Shown here one piece after another: positions 5,229 to 12,416 of a stretch of DNA of 20,095 nucleotides. Position numbers and translations under genes: made by a program. The notes beneath the pieces are model-generated. The model was not told the DNA's origin, did not search any database, and saw nothing but the letters and a program-made list of their open reading frames with translations. Position 1 is the stretch's first letter. Every line of letters begins with the position of its first letter. This DNA comes from a virus, in the IMG/VR virus record IMGVR_UViG_3300006874_000199, positions 1-20,095 of that record; one strand, 5' to 3'.

Positions 5229-5708
5229 ATGGCAACCGTAAAGGGTAATAACGTCACGCTCTACTATAAGGCTGAAGCCACTAACAACGCAAGTGATATC
5301 ACGTCACTTTCAAGTTACGCGGACGTAGAGGGCGTGACAAGCGTATCATTCAGCGCAAGTAACGCTACCTACGAGGTAGACTTTAAGGATGTGACACCTG
5401 CTGATGCTTCGAATCCACCCAGCTTGACTGCTACTCGTGCCTATGCTGTTGGCACAACTACTTGTAGCATGTCTGTTGAAGGCGTATACGATCCGGCGTT
5501 TACAGACAATGCCGAAGACTTGTTCGATTTGTGCAAGAATAAGACTCGTGTAGGCTTGTTTTTCAACGGCACTGGCACGGGCAACAAAGCCGTAGGCGGC
5601 GTAGGCTTCTGCACTAGCTTTGAATTAAGCGGCGGTGTAAACGATTTTTCTACTTTTTCGGCATCGTTCGAATTGACCGGCGATCCCACAATCATTGATG
5701 CAGTATAA
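5229..5708 (+). CDS. Major tail (tube) protein 1
   Basis: A 159-residue protein of the siphovirus tail-tube type. Its markers are GTTTCSMSVEGVYDP (about 76-90), a pattern shared by the TP901-1-like tail proteins (strand, SxEGxxD, then a helix with LFDLCKNKTRVGLFF), and a closing beta region GFCTSFELSGGVNDFSTFSA ending in the short SFELTGDP strand. Hexameric rings of such subunits stack to form the tail tube along which DNA passes. The next gene is a clear paralog with the same motifs in the same order. The ATG has no Shine-Dalgarno sequence. Position after the tail terminator gene and before the assembly chaperones supports the call. Confidence 0.88.
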   Translation: MATVKGNNVTLYYKAEATNNASDITSLSSYADVEGVTSVSFSASNATYEVDFKDVTPADASNPPSLTATRAYAVGTTTCSMSVEGVYDPAFTDNAEDLFDLCKNKTRVGLFFNGTGTGNKAVGGVGFCTSFELSGGVNDFSTFSASFELTGDPTIIDAV

Positions 5709-5710
5709 TC

Positions 5711-6178
5711 ATGGCAACAGTTAACGCAAATACGGTAGCACTTTACATTGATACCGCAGGAGGCTCTATCAGCAGCCCTGCTGACCAGGCTGGTGCAACT
5801 CCCTCAATGGTTCCGGTCGCGTTTAGCACAAGCGCTTCGATTAGTGTGAGCAACGCTACATACGAGACAACTTCTATTACTGCCGCAGGTACTGCTGAGA
5901 CACGTCGGGACTTTGCTGTTGGCAGTACATCTACAACAATGTCGGTCGAGGGTGTTTTGGACTGGGCAACTGAGGCAGGCACATTGGATGTAGATGCTTT
6001 GTTCGATGCATTTAAGGCAAAGTCAAAAGTGACAGCAGTATGGCAATCGACAGCTAACGGAAAGGCATTTGGCGGTTTCGGATTTTTGACATCATTTGAA
6101 TTGTCCTCAAGTGTAGATGATTTTGCTACATTCTCCGCATCATTGGAATTAGATGGCGATCCCCAAGCCATATCATAA
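5711..6178 (+). CDS. Major tail (tube) protein 2, paralog of the preceding gene
   Basis: A 155-residue paralog of the gene 2 bp upstream. Shared blocks are SNATYE, R-x-x-AVG followed by MSVEGV, LFD..K.K..V, and the C-terminal GF.TSFELS..V.DF.TFSAS.EL.GDP. The N-terminal third has diverged most and carries an insert (about residues 15-35, PADQAGATPSMVP). It may alternate with the first protein in the tube, form a specialised ring at one end, or be the main tube subunit while the other decorates it; the sequence does not decide this. A strong hairpin terminator follows the stop. Confidence 0.86.
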   Translation: MATVNANTVALYIDTAGGSISSPADQAGATPSMVPVAFSTSASISVSNATYETTSITAAGTAETRRDFAVGSTSTTMSVEGVLDWATEAGTLDVDALFDAFKAKSKVTAVWQSTANGKAFGGFGFLTSFELSSSVDDFATFSASLELDGDPQAIS

Positions 6179-6211: not shown

Positions 6212-6246
6212 AAGGGCGGTGCATTTTGTACCGCTCTTTCTTATTT
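6212..6246 (+). terminator. Intrinsic terminator after the tail-tube genes
   Basis: The arm aagggcggtgca (6212-6223) pairs with tgtaccgctctt (6227-6238) over 12 positions including two G-U wobbles, leaving a 3-nt loop. A T-rich tract (tttcttatttt) follows. It lies in the 86-bp gap between the second tail-tube gene and the chaperone gene. As with the terminator behind the capsid gene, genes required at lower amounts lie downstream. Confidence 0.75.
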
Positions 6247-6264: not shown

Positions 6265-6606
6265 ATGAATCAGTTATCAGGGAAGTTTGACGTGACCATA
6301 GCACGTAAGAAGTACAAGTGCCACCTCAGCATGAACGCATTTCGTTTGTTGTGTGAGAAAGAGGACTTGGATTTTAATGAGATGCAAAAGTGGATGAACA
6401 AGAACACGCTTGTTGCTGTCCCAAAGATTATCTACTACGGCATTGTCAATAATGCATATTTCAAAAACGAAGATGTTTCTGAACTACCTTCTTTGGAGTT
6501 TATGTCCGCACATATTTTGGAAGACATGGACAGCCTAGAGGATTACAGCAACAAGATTGCCATTGCGTTTGGCGGCGAAGACCCTGAAGAGGAGGGAAAG
6601 AAGTAG
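6265..6606 (+). CDS. Tail assembly chaperone, short form (lambda gpG analog)
   Basis: A 113-residue protein between the major tail genes and the tape measure, the standard place for the tail assembly chaperone. It opens with FDVTIARKKYKCHLSMNAFRL, a beta hairpin and helix usual for this group, and continues with helical parts (VAVPKIIYYGIVNNAY, LEFMSAHILEDMDS). The acidic C-terminus EDPEEEGKK is where the frameshift heptamer lies, one sense codon before the TAG stop. The protein binds the tape measure during tail assembly and is not expected in the virion. Similarity at sequence level is low in this family, so the role is inferred from position, size and the frameshift product. Confidence 0.83.
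   Translation: MNQLSGKFDVTIARKKYKCHLSMNAFRLLCEKEDLDFNEMQKWMNKNTLVAVPKIIYYGIVNNAYFKNEDVSELPSLEFMSAHILEDMDSLEDYSNKIAIAFGGEDPEEEGKK
6594..6600 (+). other. Programmed -1 ribosomal frameshift slippery site GGGAAAG
   Basis: The heptamer GGGAAAG is in the correct phase, G GGA AAG, in the chaperone frame, and is followed by AAG TAG. It is identical to the heptamer established for the lambda G/T frameshift. The -1 frame opens just upstream (after a TGA at 6585-6587) and runs on to 6956. AGGAGG (6590-6595) overlaps the heptamer; a Shine-Dalgarno-like element can stimulate slippage in enterobacteria when placed further upstream. Downstream folding is weak (CCAG 6611-6614 with CTGG 6632-6635). Confidence 0.9.
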
Positions 6607-6956
6607 ACGACCAGGACACCCCTGCTCGCAGCTGGCATCAAATCTATGAGGAGGGTCTGTCATTGGGTTTGCTCCCAATGCAGTTTTGGTCGTTGACATT
6701 CTTTGAGTATGCCAGCTACAGCAAACATTTACGGCATCAAGACAGTAGACAATGGTGGCATACGAGTAGTCTATTGGCGATGACAGCAAACGTAAATCGT
6801 GACCCAAAACGTACACCCAACCCGTACAAGCCGCGCGATTTCCATCCCTATCCTGATCATAATAAAAAGAAAGCAAAGTTTGTTCGTGGTTTGACGGCTG
6901 AGGAGAGGGATCTTACCGAATCTTGGGCGACAAAATTCCTCGAACAAAATGGCTGA
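6600..6956 (+). CDS. Tail assembly chaperone, T-like extension made by -1 frameshift (lambda gpGT analog)
   Basis: This is the second part of a fusion protein, join(6265..6600, 6600..6956), of about 230 residues, of which 118 are encoded here. After the slip, codons read GAA GTA GAC and so on, giving EVDDQDTPARSWHQIYEEG. Then comes LGLLPMQFWSLTFFEYASY, with the Trp/Phe-rich pattern typical of the T-like domain in siphovirus chaperones (small helical, lgxxPxxFWxLTxxE). The C-terminus is basic (DPKRTPNPYKPRDFHPY, HNKKKAKF). No ATG exists in this frame near the beginning; the only other way to start is a TTG at 6663, which would delete the SWHQIYEEG part. The 8-nt overlap with the tape-measure start fits translational coupling. 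Confidence 0.87.
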   Translation, partial: EVDDQDTPARSWHQIYEEGLSLGLLPMQFWSLTFFEYASYSKHLRHQDSRQWWHTSSLLAMTANVNRDPKRTPNPYKPRDFHPYPDHNKKKAKFVRGLTAEERDLTESWATKFLEQNG

Positions 6957-9822
6957 AGAATTAAGTAAGTTATCCGTCATATTCCTCTTAGACACTAGCC
7001 GGTTTGAGAGGTCACTGACAGACACACAAAAAAAGATGCGCCGAGTGGGCAGGGAACTGTCCGATCTAGGAAAGCGCATGACCATCGGTCTTACTGTACC
7101 GATTGCTTTAGCAGGTAAAAGGATAACTGAAACGGCCACCGCATTCGAGTATCAGATGGCTCGTGTGCAAGCCATTAGTGGCGCTACATCTAGTGCATTC
7201 AAACAACTCCAGGGCAATGCCGAGGCACTTGGTGCATCTACAATCTTTACCGCGCGTGAGGTCGGCGCACTGCAAGAAGAGTTCGCCAAGCTGGGCTTTA
7301 CGGCACAGGAGATTACTAAGGTAACTGAAAGTACACTGTCGCTCGCGCAAGTTACAGGTGCTACACTGCCTCGTGCAGCAGAGATTGCCGGATCCACGCT
7401 TCGCACATTTAACATGGATGCCTCTCGTGTTGGAGAGGTAAACGATTTGGTGGCCGTTGCCATCAGTAGGTCTGCACTTGACTTTGAGTCATTTGCAGAG
7501 ACTATGAAGTACGCCGGTAGCCAAGCCGCTGTAAGTGGTGTGACTATGTCCGAGCTGGGGGCAGCTATGGGTGTCTTAGCTAACCGAGGTGTCAAGGGAT
7601 CAATTGCAGGTACTCGCTTGCGTATGATTTTCGCTAAGTTGACTGAAGAAGGCGGAGACACACACAAAAAGTTCCTAGACTTAGTACACGGCAGTATGAG
7701 CATGGCTGAAGCAATTGACCGCTTCGGTATTCGTGCTGCAACGGCTATTCCGGTTCTACAAGAAAACGCTGCGGAGTTCGACCGTCTTGACCGTCAGATG
7801 CAACTCGCACACGGTACGCTTGAGATCATGCAAGCAGAGATGGACGACACGTCTTTTGCTGCTCAGAAAAAACTAAAGTCTGCCTTAGAAGATGTAAGCA
7901 TCCAGCTTGGTAAAGCGTTGCTGCCTATGATTAATGCGGTTGCAAATGCTTTGGTTAAAGTAGCCAATGGTTTTGCTTCGCTACCTAAGTTCTTCCAAAC
8001 GCTGATCGTTGTTATAGGAACTTTAGTTGCGGCTATTGGCCCGTTGCTTTTGGTGTTTGGGTCTTTGAATCACTCGATGGTCACCATCTCTCTGCTATCT
8101 CCAAAGTTAGCTACTGCGCTGTCTTCTATGTTTGGGCCAATCGGTATTGCAGTCACTTTGATTGGCACTTTGGCTCTGTCTTTCTTAAGCGCGGCTAGTG
8201 AAGCGGAGAAGCTAGAAGGTGTAGGTGATCGCACAAACCGCGCTATGTTGCAAGCAAAGGAGGCTACTCTTAAAGCAACGTCTAGTGTTCGCATGCTCAT
8301 TGACCAGTATCAAAATGAAAATAGAACACTTGAGGAGAAGCAGCGCATCCTCAATGAACTAAATCGTCTTCAGCCGAAATTCTTTGATAAGTTAGATGCA
8401 GAGGCTACAAAGGTTCAAGACCTTGAAGACGCATATCGTAATCTTTTCAAGGAGATGCTTCGTCAAGAACAGGCAAAAGCCTTTATGACGGAGATAAACA
8501 AGTTAGAAAGTGAACGCATTGCATTCCTAATCGAAGAGGATAAGCGATTGCAGCAACTCGAAGACACACGTCGTCGTGCAGCAGAAGGTGACCCATCTCT
8601 GCAAAAACGAACTGTAACTGTTACTACCGAAGAGGGTGACAAGATTACTACAGAACGCGATCCGGTACGGTTTGCTGAGATGGAGTTTGAGTCTTATCAG
8701 CGATACGCTGCCAAACAAATTAAAGACCTAGAATCACAAGCCAAGCGGTTTGAGGGCATGATGCAGGATCGAGGCTTGTTTGAATTGTTGTTAGGCGATC
8801 CTCAAAAGGTTACGCCTGGTAGTGCTACTGTCGCAGTGCGAGAGATGGAGGATATTATGGCCGAGTTAGCTAAGAAGCTAAAGGTCATTGAAGCGCGTAA
8901 GGATGCCTTGAATCTGTCTGACCTAGACGTAAGCAAAGAAAAACTTACAGCATATACAAAAGCCTTTGAAGACCTGATCGTAGCCGGCGTTGATGGGCAA
9001 GACGTAGGCAACAACATAAAGTTTGTTGGTGATGCTGTTACAGGCTTGAACAACGACATTGAGAAGGCGGAGCAAATTCAAGAATTAGCTGACATTCTCG
9101 AAGACCTCGATCGTAAATTGGCAAAGATCAATCGTCGCATGACCGGGGCAATTTCCGGGCCTGAAAGCAAGTTGAAAAGTCTCAAAGCCGAGCAACAAGC
9201 CATAGGTGATGCGATTGCTAAACTGCAAAAAGACACTCCAGGCGCTACTGAGGAGATTGCTAATCTGCAAAAGCAATACGATGAGTTGACACCTGCAATT
9301 GCTAAGGCAAATGAAGAACTCTTAAAGTACCAACAAAGACAGCAAATGATTGAGACCATTACTAATGGCTCTGTTGATGCTTTCTTCTCTTTGGGTTCAG
9401 CAATGGGTGACTTGACTGATTCGACAGTATCGTTAGGACGAAGGATGGTCAACTCAATTGCCAAGTCTGTTGCCGCAATGCTTAAGCAAGTGTATGTGCA
9501 GTTTGCCTTGAATGCAATCCAAAACTCTACACACCCACTCCACGCAATTGCACTTATGGGTATTGGAGCTGGGGCAATTAGCGGCTTCTTAAACAGCATT
9601 CCGGCACTCGCCCAAGGGGGCATCGCCGTCGGGCCACAACTCGCCGTCGTCGGCGACAACCGATCCGGACGTGAGGCTATTATCCCATTAGAAAAGCTAC
9701 CTGGTTTAATGCAGAAGATGGGCGGCGGTATGGGCGGTCGCTTGTACGGAAGCCTTGATGGTTACGATATTGTATTGTCGAACGAGCGCAACAACCGCTT
9801 GATGCAACGATCCTCACGATAA
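6949..9822 (+). CDS. Tail tape measure protein, TP901 family
   Basis: A 957-residue protein that fixes tail length and is ejected with DNA. The N-terminus has VIFLLDTSRFERSLTDTQKK and RELSDLGKRMTIGLTVPIAL. The conserved PhageMin_Tail part spans about residues 60-270, with FTAREVGALQEEFAKLGF and GVTMSELGAAMGVLANRGV. Two hydrophobic segments (about 351-370 and 394-414) are candidates for membrane insertion. Coiled-coil stretches follow (about 415-530 and 590-805). Near the C-terminus LAQGGIAVGPQLAVVGDN and REAIIPLEKL form the usual GG-GP-VG-EAIIPL motif. At about 0.15 nm per residue, the rule used for lambda-type tails, the tail would be near 140 nm; this is an estimate. A short GC-rich hairpin lies in the C-terminal motif region. 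Confidence 0.95.
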   Translation: MAEELSKLSVIFLLDTSRFERSLTDTQKKMRRVGRELSDLGKRMTIGLTVPIALAGKRITETATAFEYQMARVQAISGATSSAFKQLQGNAEALGASTIFTAREVGALQEEFAKLGFTAQEITKVTESTLSLAQVTGATLPRAAEIAGSTLRTFNMDASRVGEVNDLVAVAISRSALDFESFAETMKYAGSQAAVSGVTMSELGAAMGVLANRGVKGSIAGTRLRMIFAKLTEEGGDTHKKFLDLVHGSMSMAEAIDRFGIRAATAIPVLQENAAEFDRLDRQMQLAHGTLEIMQAEMDDTSFAAQKKLKSALEDVSIQLGKALLPMINAVANALVKVANGFASLPKFFQTLIVVIGTLVAAIGPLLLVFGSLNHSMVTISLLSPKLATALSSMFGPIGIAVTLIGTLALSFLSAASEAEKLEGVGDRTNRAMLQAKEATLKATSSVRMLIDQYQNENRTLEEKQRILNELNRLQPKFFDKLDAEATKVQDLEDAYRNLFKEMLRQEQAKAFMTEINKLESERIAFLIEEDKRLQQLEDTRRRAAEGDPSLQKRTVTVTTEEGDKITTERDPVRFAEMEFESYQRYAAKQIKDLESQAKRFEGMMQDRGLFELLLGDPQKVTPGSATVAVREMEDIMAELAKKLKVIEARKDALNLSDLDVSKEKLTAYTKAFEDLIVAGVDGQDVGNNIKFVGDAVTGLNNDIEKAEQIQELADILEDLDRKLAKINRRMTGAISGPESKLKSLKAEQQAIGDAIAKLQKDTPGATEEIANLQKQYDELTPAIAKANEELLKYQQRQQMIETITNGSVDAFFSLGSAMGDLTDSTVSLGRRMVNSIAKSVAAMLKQVYVQFALNAIQNSTHPLHAIALMGIGAGAISGFLNSIPALAQGGIAVGPQLAVVGDNRSGREAIIPLEKLPGLMQKMGGGMGGRLYGSLDGYDIVLSNERNNRLMQRSSR
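9601..9660 (+). other. GC-rich patch with hairpin and direct repeat inside the tape-measure gene
   Basis: By hand count 44 of these 60 bases are G or C, against a visibly lower share on both sides. Within it tcgccg-tcgt-cggcga (9641-9656) is a perfect 6-bp hairpin with a 4-nt loop, and tcgccgtcg occurs twice, at 9623-9631 and 9641-9649. The patch encodes the conserved C-terminal tape-measure motif. Confidence 0.6.
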
Positions 9823-12416
9823 TGGCAATTCAGCAACGATTCCAAAGCATAATCCAAAGTGGTAGCGGTGACGTGTACCGCCTGAAGTTGTACGACCTTG
9901 ACCACAGTACGAATGCCGGAGTGCAGAACGCTACGTGGGGTTGGAACATCTCAGACGGTGTGCAGACGATCGAGACACTTTACGACAGTGCGGAGATCAG
10001 GTGGGACGGTCAAACCGACAAAGTGCATCAGGGCATCATCGGTAGCACGTTCAGCGTTGCTTTCTTGTCGCAAGACAGCAAGGGCTACGGCATCTTGACT
10101 GCCATGAAGTACAGCACCGAGTTCAAGCTGGCAATCGAGGTAGAACGGTGGGACTACACTGCTGAGGCATACGAGGTGTACTGGCGTGGTGTTGCGTTAC
10201 CGGAAGCGATTCGTGTAGACTACAGCGACAACCCAATGGTCATCCGCATGCAGTTCACTGATGGACTGAGCCTGTTGCGAGATGTGACCTATGTAGATAC
10301 CGACTACACCATTTACGAAGGATACGAGACTGCTAGATCACAAATCGGCAAGTGCATGCGCCACCTGCCGCACTTGGACTTGTGGGGCGCGACTGACGAC
10401 TTCTTCTTTGAGGCGTGTGATTTGTTCCATGACAACCACGCTACATACAACGCAAGCAACGAGATTACAGCCATTAGCAGCATACTAAACGAAGTAGGCT
10501 GCCGTCAGGAACTGTGGTACGAAGAGCGCAGTTACGACCCACCATTCTTCCGTGAGCAGCGGATCAGGCAGAACGGTATGACGTGCTACGAGGTCATTGA
10601 GCATTGGATGATTAGTATGGGTTTGCGACTGTGCCATACCGGTGGTGCATTTGTTGCAGTCAGCCCGTTCCTAAAGATAAGTGGCCGTGCTGATCGACTC
10701 TACAAAAACACCAAGCAGTCCTTAGTAGACACTGCATATGACGACAGCGCAGCTACAGCGGATAGCAGCAATACCCAGCTCCTGCCCGACAGTGTAGACA
10801 TGACTGCCGACTCTGTGCTGCAAGGCAGTTCTATGTCGTTTATGCATCCCGTTCGCGGCATCTACTACACGCATTTGCAGGGTGGTAGCGCACGACTATT
10901 CCCACAGGTGAATTGGGTTGCAGTCGAGGGCGACTTCCCACAGACTGATCTTTCTGTAAACCTCATCGGTCAGATTTACGACATCAGCGAAAACTACAAT
11001 GTACAATTCCCGTTGAGCAATACGACGGCTGTCGTGCCTACTGACCGTCCGGTACGTATAGTCGGCAGATTTCAGCATTGGTTCAGAATTGATGACACAC
11101 CTGCCGCTTATCAAGACAAAGCGATTGGCGCACAGTTTGAGGTTCGTATGAAGGTAAAAGTGGGTCAGTACTACTTGAAACAAGACGTATCGTTGTTGCC
11201 TCTTAGCGATTTTACTAACGACACTAGCTTCGGGGACATCGTCAAGACCGGATCGGATATTACTACGTGGCGGCCATTGGTTATTAGCAGCGACGTTGAA
11301 TGGACAACCGACAGCAGTGACCGTTTCAGTTTCCCTTCTTTTCTAGTGCCAAATGACGTAAACGTACCGTCTGTAGACCTGCTGCAATACGACACAGGTA
11401 ACGGTGACATCATTGAGTACGCATGTGGATTTGGTTGTCGTCGTCATCCAGATAACCCAAACAAGATGAAGTATGACAGCACCTCGCGACAGCTATGGGG
11501 TCAGGCATACGAGATTATCTTGGACAGCAACTTTCCACAACTGCCAACTACGACAATTGAGGAGACAGGTGTAGAGATTACGGTAGAAGTAATTGGCTAC
11601 ATGAATGACGGTACTGTAGTAAATACAACCAACAACCCGTCAAACTATACCGATATCATCTACCCCACAAACCCAATCCGCCCTGACGGTGCGCGAATTA
11701 TCGGCTTTAACATGTATGTGGGTGATGGAACGGATGAGGACGATGCGTTCTACTACGCAGAGGGAAGCACAGTAAACGGGACGGAAATGGTAGAGGGTGG
11801 TGCTACTATGGTCGGCAGCCGAGTAGTAGAAGACTACGGTACGATTGGCGTACTCGTTGCCACCGGATCAGACGGCTTCAGCCACGAGTGGTACAGCGAA
11901 AACGGCTTTGTGTATGGCGAGAACAAGCGCAACCTTGAAGTACTTGCCGACGAGCATATCCGTCAGCGTGTAAAGACTCGTGACACGTTTAACTTGCAGT
12001 TCCTTGCTCGCACAGCGGAGCAACCCTGGTTTGGCCCGCACCAACGCTACAAGTGGACACACGAAGGCACAGACCACTTCCTTGTGCCATTTGCGTGTAC
12101 TCACCAGCTCACAGAGAACATACTCACCATTGAGGGCTACGAGGGTCAGCGAGATACTGGCACGATTACAGAACATAATGACTCCAATAAGAAGTTAGTT
12201 GGCACACAAATCGTAGGCGGTGGTGGCGGTGTCGTTGGCACGTCGCCCATCTTTACGCCGCGCAGCACCTTTGGATCTAGCAACCCTGGTATTAGTGCTG
12301 CAGATCAAACCAAGCTAAACCTGATCGATGTCACCACTAGCGTTGACTTAGACAACATCTCATCGGGTGGCGATACCGATGCATCAGACTTATTCCAAAT
12401 ATTCCTTGAGAAGTAA
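9822..12416 (+). CDS. Large tail-tip / baseplate protein
   Basis: An 864-residue protein directly after the tape measure, where distal-tail and tail-hub genes sit in siphoviruses. There is no separate small distal-tail gene, so this protein may combine these roles; that is inference. The N-terminus (FQSIIQSGSGDVYRLKLYD, about residues 7-25) is beta-rich. Around residue 250 is GMTCYEVIEHWMISMGLRLC followed by GGAFVAVSPFL. I know this Cys-helix-GxRL-GGxFxxV pattern from tail-tip proteins of Bacteroidota phages. Many aromatic and Asp residues follow, with no transmembrane segment or signal peptide. The last 50 residues change character: Gly-rich linker, then ISAADQTKLNLIDVTTSVDL, which resembles the fibre repeats in the next gene. 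TAATG overlaps couple it to both neighbours. Confidence 0.75.
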   Translation: MAIQQRFQSIIQSGSGDVYRLKLYDLDHSTNAGVQNATWGWNISDGVQTIETLYDSAEIRWDGQTDKVHQGIIGSTFSVAFLSQDSKGYGILTAMKYSTEFKLAIEVERWDYTAEAYEVYWRGVALPEAIRVDYSDNPMVIRMQFTDGLSLLRDVTYVDTDYTIYEGYETARSQIGKCMRHLPHLDLWGATDDFFFEACDLFHDNHATYNASNEITAISSILNEVGCRQELWYEERSYDPPFFREQRIRQNGMTCYEVIEHWMISMGLRLCHTGGAFVAVSPFLKISGRADRLYKNTKQSLVDTAYDDSAATADSSNTQLLPDSVDMTADSVLQGSSMSFMHPVRGIYYTHLQGGSARLFPQVNWVAVEGDFPQTDLSVNLIGQIYDISENYNVQFPLSNTTAVVPTDRPVRIVGRFQHWFRIDDTPAAYQDKAIGAQFEVRMKVKVGQYYLKQDVSLLPLSDFTNDTSFGDIVKTGSDITTWRPLVISSDVEWTTDSSDRFSFPSFLVPNDVNVPSVDLLQYDTGNGDIIEYACGFGCRRHPDNPNKMKYDSTSRQLWGQAYEIILDSNFPQLPTTTIEETGVEITVEVIGYMNDGTVVNTTNNPSNYTDIIYPTNPIRPDGARIIGFNMYVGDGTDEDDAFYYAEGSTVNGTEMVEGGATMVGSRVVEDYGTIGVLVATGSDGFSHEWYSENGFVYGENKRNLEVLADEHIRQRVKTRDTFNLQFLARTAEQPWFGPHQRYKWTHEGTDHFLVPFACTHQLTENILTIEGYEGQRDTGTITEHNDSNKKLVGTQIVGGGGGVVGTSPIFTPRSTFGSSNPGISAADQTKLNLIDVTTSVDLDNISSGGDTDASDLFQIFLEK

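Follow-up and report, generated by a model that had tools for sequence, protein, structure and literature searches.

Frameshifting of the G/GT type is among the most widespread of recoding events, and tail assembly in phage lambda depends on the ratio of its two products, gpG and the fusion gpGT. Does a viral sequence of 20,095 nucleotides (nt) (IMG/VR record IMGVR_UViG_3300006874_000199, positions 1 to 20,095; this whole stretch is called the window below) encode such a pair, and if it does, what might set the ratio? Two overlapping open reading frames (ORFs) lie between the genes for the major tail protein and the tape measure protein, the second in the -1 frame relative to the first. It is very probable that they constitute a lambda-type G/GT chaperone pair expressed by programmed -1 frameshifting, with a branched RNA element downstream of the slip site probably stimulating the event. 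Frameshifts of this sort are already known. What would be new is a conserved branched stimulator within a tail chaperone gene, and we found no report of one in the openly accessible literature.

The slip site and its conservation

The features that bear on the frameshift are these:
6265..6606, + strand: upstream ORF, gpG-like putative tail assembly chaperone, 113 aa, ends with TAG (ORF call, AlphaFold/BFVD match, synteny)
6594..6600, + strand: slippery heptamer G_GGA_AAG (phase, presence in 29/29 distinct relatives, synonymous conservation)
6600..6956, + strand: -1 frame ORF, gpT-like, 118 aa of the predicted fusion, ends with TGA (Pfam matches, ratio of non-synonymous to synonymous changes, pN/pS)

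Read directly, the heptamer GGGAAAG stands in the phase G GGA AAG, and the upstream ORF ends ...GAG GGA AAG AAG TAG, with one AAG codon between the slip site and the stop. After a stop at 6585-6587, the -1 frame stays open from 6588 through the TGA at 6954-6956, and the two frames overlap by only about 17 nt. A fusion would join 112 residues of the 0 frame to 118 of the -1 frame, 230 in all, with the junction peptide EEEGKEVDD inside the wider stretch ...PEEEGKEVDDQD.... The first-pass annotation of this DNA had proposed a lambda-type -1 frameshift joining two tail chaperones, with this heptamer and phase one codon ahead of the TAG, a -1 frame from 6588 to 6956 and a product of about 230 residues. 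Each of these details agrees with our reading, and the proposal as a whole gains support from the relatives with which it had suggested a comparison.

With the G-like protein as query, 43 loci were retrieved from viral contigs, and 42 of them contain the region. After three loci had been added (L088, L090 and L091) and duplicates dropped, 29 distinct sequences remained, falling into 17 clusters below 80% protein identity. GGGAAAG or GGGAAAC is present in the slip phase in all 42 relatives holding the region and likewise in all 29 distinct sequences (GGGAAAC in 18, GGGAAAG in 11). Few sites of the fusion ORF are as strongly conserved at the synonymous level as the slip codons; GGA never varies, whereas glycine codons would be expected to match at only about 0.27. 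Among more distant T-like loci an in-phase AAAAAAC, GGGAAAC or GGGAAAG occurs in all readable cases except one (L092). Given so short an overlap and an in-phase heptamer in 42/42 and 29/29 relatives, its occurrence is, on comparison of the sequences, far above chance. We conclude that two versions of the tail chaperone are almost certainly made by -1 slippage at GGGAAAG.

Two observations concern the outlying loci. L088, L090 and L091 form a more distant clade in which GGGAAAC directly adjoins the 0-frame stop. Distant T-like genes were also seen in bacterial genomes, at 3614-4051 of L102 (a Chloroflexi metagenome-assembled genome) and 7258-7968 of L103 (Massilia), with the in-phase heptamers GGGAAAC and AAAAAAC, respectively.

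The frames could in principle be joined by slippage of the RNA polymerase at the G/A run rather than of the ribosome, and transcriptional slippage is known in some bacterial and insertion sequence (IS) genes. We regard this as scarcely credible here: GGGAAA is not a long homopolymer, and the fixed codon phase, a Z base that is only G or C and the structured region downstream all fit ribosomal slippage.

Is the second frame read as part of a fusion?

The beginning of the -1 frame has no ATG; its first TTG is at 6663 and its first ATG at 6678. Nevertheless, the claim made from the window alone, that this beginning codes for protein, is borne out. Between the slip site and TTG 6663 the pN/pS is 0.27, compared with 0.28 in the G ORF and 0.28 in the remainder of T, and invariant W, Y, G and L residues are encoded upstream of that TTG. 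Translation of the -1 ORF as a fusion, with no start of its own, is what this pattern of substitution indicates.

The T-like protein might instead be translated from a start of its own, such as TTG 6663, with no fusion at all; the first-pass annotation had named this as the result that would count against it. Such a start could draw on GAGGAGGG, a few nt upstream of the TTG, the TTG being preceded by gaggagggtctgtca. However, hardly any other gene of the window has a comparable Shine-Dalgarno (SD) sequence at its start, and ATG, GTG or TTG codons near 6663 are not conserved, some relatives having none nearby. One relative (L018) lacks a start codon until +99 and another (L043) lacks one between the heptamer and +177. 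Independent initiation cannot account for a frame that is conserved ahead of any start while the starts themselves are not, and it would also leave the fixed heptamer and phase unexplained. TTG 6663 was thus rejected as the start of T, and we hold independent initiation to be very improbable.

One further detail of the first-pass annotation fared less well. AGGAGG is indeed present at 6590-6595, overlapping the slip site, but its proposed role as a functional variation does not survive comparison: GGAGG is found in only 12/29 sequences. Nor is there in the window an SD-like match 6-17 nt upstream of the heptamer, of the dnaX or IS911 type; 9/29 sequences have one. Being neither conserved nor properly spaced, the AGGAGG overlap probably just reflects the codons for Glu-Gly, and it is not likely to have a part in frameshifting.

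What the two proteins resemble

All 23 aligned T-like members match the Pfam families Phage_tail_T and Phage_TAC_6 (best expectation value, E, 3.4e-6). The upstream G-like protein has no family match. Its AlphaFold model (predicted local distance difference test, pLDDT, 85.8) finds predicted phage tail assembly chaperones in BFVD at template modelling (TM) scores of 0.5-0.7, the best annotated one at TM 0.65-0.68 with E 2.3e-3; the matches that rank higher, with TM up to 0.73, are phage proteins with no assigned name. A fold search of the PDB with the same model gave no usable match. As modelled, then, the upstream protein resembles the tail assembly chaperone fold.

A conserved branched RNA element

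In the consensus fold of the 130 nt that follow the slip site (RNAalifold), a long stem, P1, pairs 6603-6604 and 6606-6617 with 6683-6694 and 6696-6697 and encloses two hairpins:
6603..6617, + strand: P1 closing stem, 5' arm, core 6606-6617 (RNAalifold, covariation, recoding control)
6620..6655, + strand: inner hairpin P2 (minimum free energy, MFE, structures; exact pairs vary between lineages)
6658..6682, + strand: inner hairpin P3 (MFE structures; stem CATTGGG/CCCAATG in a hairpin pattern scan)
6683..6697, + strand: P1 closing stem, 3' arm, core 6683-6694 (same evidence as the other arm; in the window, pairs have a mean probability of 0.97)

The core of P1 has 12 base pairs (bp) and begins 5 nt after the heptamer. 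Folding of single sequences returned the same closing stem in 17/17 sequences tested, and P1 is in the MFE structure of 26/26 sequences, where 9-12 of its 12 core pairs form and the pairs have mean probabilities of 0.75-0.98. Across 25 distinct sequences, 95.7% of the cells of a 14-pair helix are paired, versus 24-47% when the partner is slid. The window contains three perfect 12-bp helices of P1's span, one of which is P1. In most lineages two hairpins are predicted to branch inside P1, directly or after an extension of P1, while the clade of L041, L043 and L045 has a single inner arm. L088 and L091 have a different strong local hairpin right after GGGAAAC in place of the branched element. 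Rfam frameshift elements gave nothing above the gathering score, and no pseudoknot or loop-loop partner for the element was found.

Since both arms of P1 encode conserved residues, each sequence was recoded synonymously as a control. The native sequences form 302 P1 pairs in total versus 244 +/- 6.7 in the recoded ones, the native value being at the maximum of the recoded range in nearly every sequence, and the native MFE is on average 2.4 standard deviations lower than that of the controls (mean z -2.4).

These figures bear on a further possibility, that the heptamer alone drives the frameshift and the stem serves some other purpose or is a by-product of conserved protein motifs (V-S/D-D-Q-D and Q-F-W-S-L-T). 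Random synonymous recoding already yields 8-10 of the 12 P1 pairs, and few motifs are as efficient in Escherichia coli as G_GGA_AAG (PMC4066793). On the other hand, the native excess of pairs and stability over recoded controls, and the compensatory changes, speak against this possibility. Moreover, most relatives carry G_GGA_AAC, which is weak in E. coli, so that help would be expected, although IS elements do use it (PMC4066793). We consider a heptamer acting alone unlikely, but it deserves to be kept in mind.

Several results weigh against the interpretation that we favour, a lambda-type frameshift with a downstream stimulator. Compensatory changes in P1 are few (3 pairs, 8 cells), and a shuffle test for P1 was inflated by the relatedness of the sequences. 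Recoded versions of the window sequence still form 9.4 of the 12 P1 pairs, so the pairing comes partly from the coding. As for the proteins, the T-like protein of the window scores 24.6-24.7 bits against Phage_tail_T (PF06223), for which the curated cut-off is 25.9 bits, and direct profile comparison (hhalign) with lambda gpG and gpT gave probabilities below 1% and no significant match.

How would the locus work? Most ribosomes would translate 6265-6603 and stop at the TAG, giving the gpG-like protein of 113 aa. In a minority, the tRNAs on GGA and AAG would re-pair on GGG and AAA in a tandem slippage, and these ribosomes would continue in the -1 frame to give the 230-residue gpGT-like fusion with the T-like domain in its second half. 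The branched element, 5 nt beyond the heptamer, would meet the entry site of the ribosome and stimulate slippage. Spacing and branched fold match known bacterial -1 stimulators, the IS911 three-way junction included, and by this analogy the element is probably a frameshift stimulator that sets the frequency of slippage. The first-pass annotation had not seen it; its lambda-type interpretation stands with regard to the frameshift and is amended to include this likely stimulator. Should the products act like their lambda counterparts, the tape measure protein would be coated by the shorter one, and the T portion of the fusion would recruit the major tail protein.

Comparison with known systems

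Lambda G/GT has the identical heptamer in the identical phase, as had been pointed out from the window alone, and the same gene order (major tail protein, G, T, tape measure), with the -1 ORF overlapping the start of the tape measure gene in both. There are differences. The 0-frame stop follows the heptamer by 3 nt in the window and by 15 in lambda, the P1 core has 12 bp versus 8 bp in lambda-type phages, and most relatives of the window carry GGGAAAC, unlike lambda. The locus appears to function as lambda G/GT does and is built in the same way; for the G part, nothing in the direct comparison speaks for descent from lambda's own genes.

Does lambda have such a stem as well? A scan with lambda T returned only near-identical copies, and therefore divergent lambda-like records were chosen individually.
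L138 (lambda) 717-796, and L396-L402 (including N15, phi80 and relatives): predicted lambda-type closing stem (folding versus synonymous controls)
In seven lambda-like sequences a closing stem lies about 5-7 nt after the slip site round inner hairpins, and the fold energies are 2.4-3.8 standard deviations below synonymous controls. In lambda G/T the arms of the stem are CGGTGAGC and GCTTGCCG. Of the cells of the stem 94.6% are paired, and one pair is compensatory, among sequences that are few and closely related. Lambda-like phages may thus have a similar, shorter stem.

The motif of IS911 (IS3 family) is A_AAA_AAG. There the heptamer is followed by a closing stem round two hairpins, forming a three-way junction (PMC4066793; PMC5009743). 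The folds predicted here share that shape, with a closing stem 5-8 nt after the heptamer round two hairpins. The IS911 gene, however, encodes a transposase unrelated to the genes of the window, and its upstream SD stimulator has no conserved counterpart in our group. Stimulators of the IS3411 type, and others that use pseudoknots or long-range pairing, likewise consist of downstream RNA structure, but no counterpart of the pseudoknot or loop-loop partner was found in the window. In general, stimulators of -1 frameshifts in bacteria typically stand at a spacing of 5-8 nt and take the form of branched hairpins, and a conserved hairpin was described in 3/5 phage clusters, with relevance suggested for one (PMC4066793); structured stimulators in phages are therefore not unprecedented. 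GGGAAAC is used by a haloarchaeal virus tail gene (PMC5009743). The haloarchaeal viruses HCTV-1, -2 and -5 also have G/T frameshifts, in archaeal hosts unlike the window, and the portion of their description at hand mentions no downstream element.

Genome context and host

The window is a phage contig of 20 kb with portal, prohead protease and head-tail connector genes. The likely capsid gene is 1479-2771, with no significant family match. Two neighbours flank the chaperone genes:
5711..6178, + strand: major tail (tube) protein gene (PHROG 1407 at 2.1e-18; Pfam Phage_tail_2 at 7.4e-11)
6949..9822, + strand: tail tape measure gene (PHROG tape measure matches down to 1.4e-76), whose ATG falls inside the 3' end of the -1 frame

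The tandem genes 5229-5708 and 5711-6178 both match major tail protein PHROG 1407. The order is thus two tandem major tail proteins, G-like, T-like and tape measure, followed by an amidase and a cytosine methylase. Between the second major tail protein gene and the G-like gene, a terminator-like hairpin was noticed by eye at 6214-6245 (GGGCGGTGC ATTTT GTACCGCTC, then T-rich); it was not among the hairpins returned by the pattern scan.

Gene starts in the window without an SD pattern, and a top-ranked methylase match in a Bacteroides phage, make a Bacteroidota host plausible. A scan of a genome collection for relatives gave only two distant loci, so that no host could be assigned from it, and searches of a phage collection with the capsid and the large tail protein 9822-12413 gave nothing.

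Other conserved blocks

The strongest five-codon synonymous block in a scan of 16 genes (27 contigs, about 14 kb compared) is a 15-mer inside T, AAAGCAAAGTTTGTT at 6870-6884, encoding K A K F V. It is identical in nucleotides in every relative that keeps KAKFV. A CTT at 6912-6914, 27 nt downstream, is also fixed, while synonymous sites on either side show free variation. The block is not accounted for by a promoter, a repeat or an RNA fold: RNAalifold on 6813-7003 yielded no more than a weak hairpin of 5 bp that lacked covariation, and exact matches to the 15-mer in viral contigs outside the group look like chance. Long-range pairing with the slip region was rejected, as the slip side varies between AAG and AAC with no matching changes.

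Another synonymously conserved block, GAGGCACTnCTTTCtATTCA at 1432-1458, lies at the end of the protease gene about 20-45 nt ahead of the capsid start codon at 1479. In the portal gene, the segment TATTATCAmACTTTG at 382-397 shows partial synonymous conservation; its version in L260, L261 and L263 matches the 6870 motif, inverted, with 1-2 mismatches.

Implications

A broader suggestion can be made, tentatively and with more doubt than confidence: the branched stem over the start of T might be a general and overlooked stimulator of G/GT frameshifting, here and in lambda, in which arms under joint protein and RNA constraint set the G:GT ratio. If true, a conserved structured stimulator would explain how that ratio is set and how a weak heptamer such as GGGAAAC can be enough, and annotators would gain a further signal to look for in addition to the heptamer.

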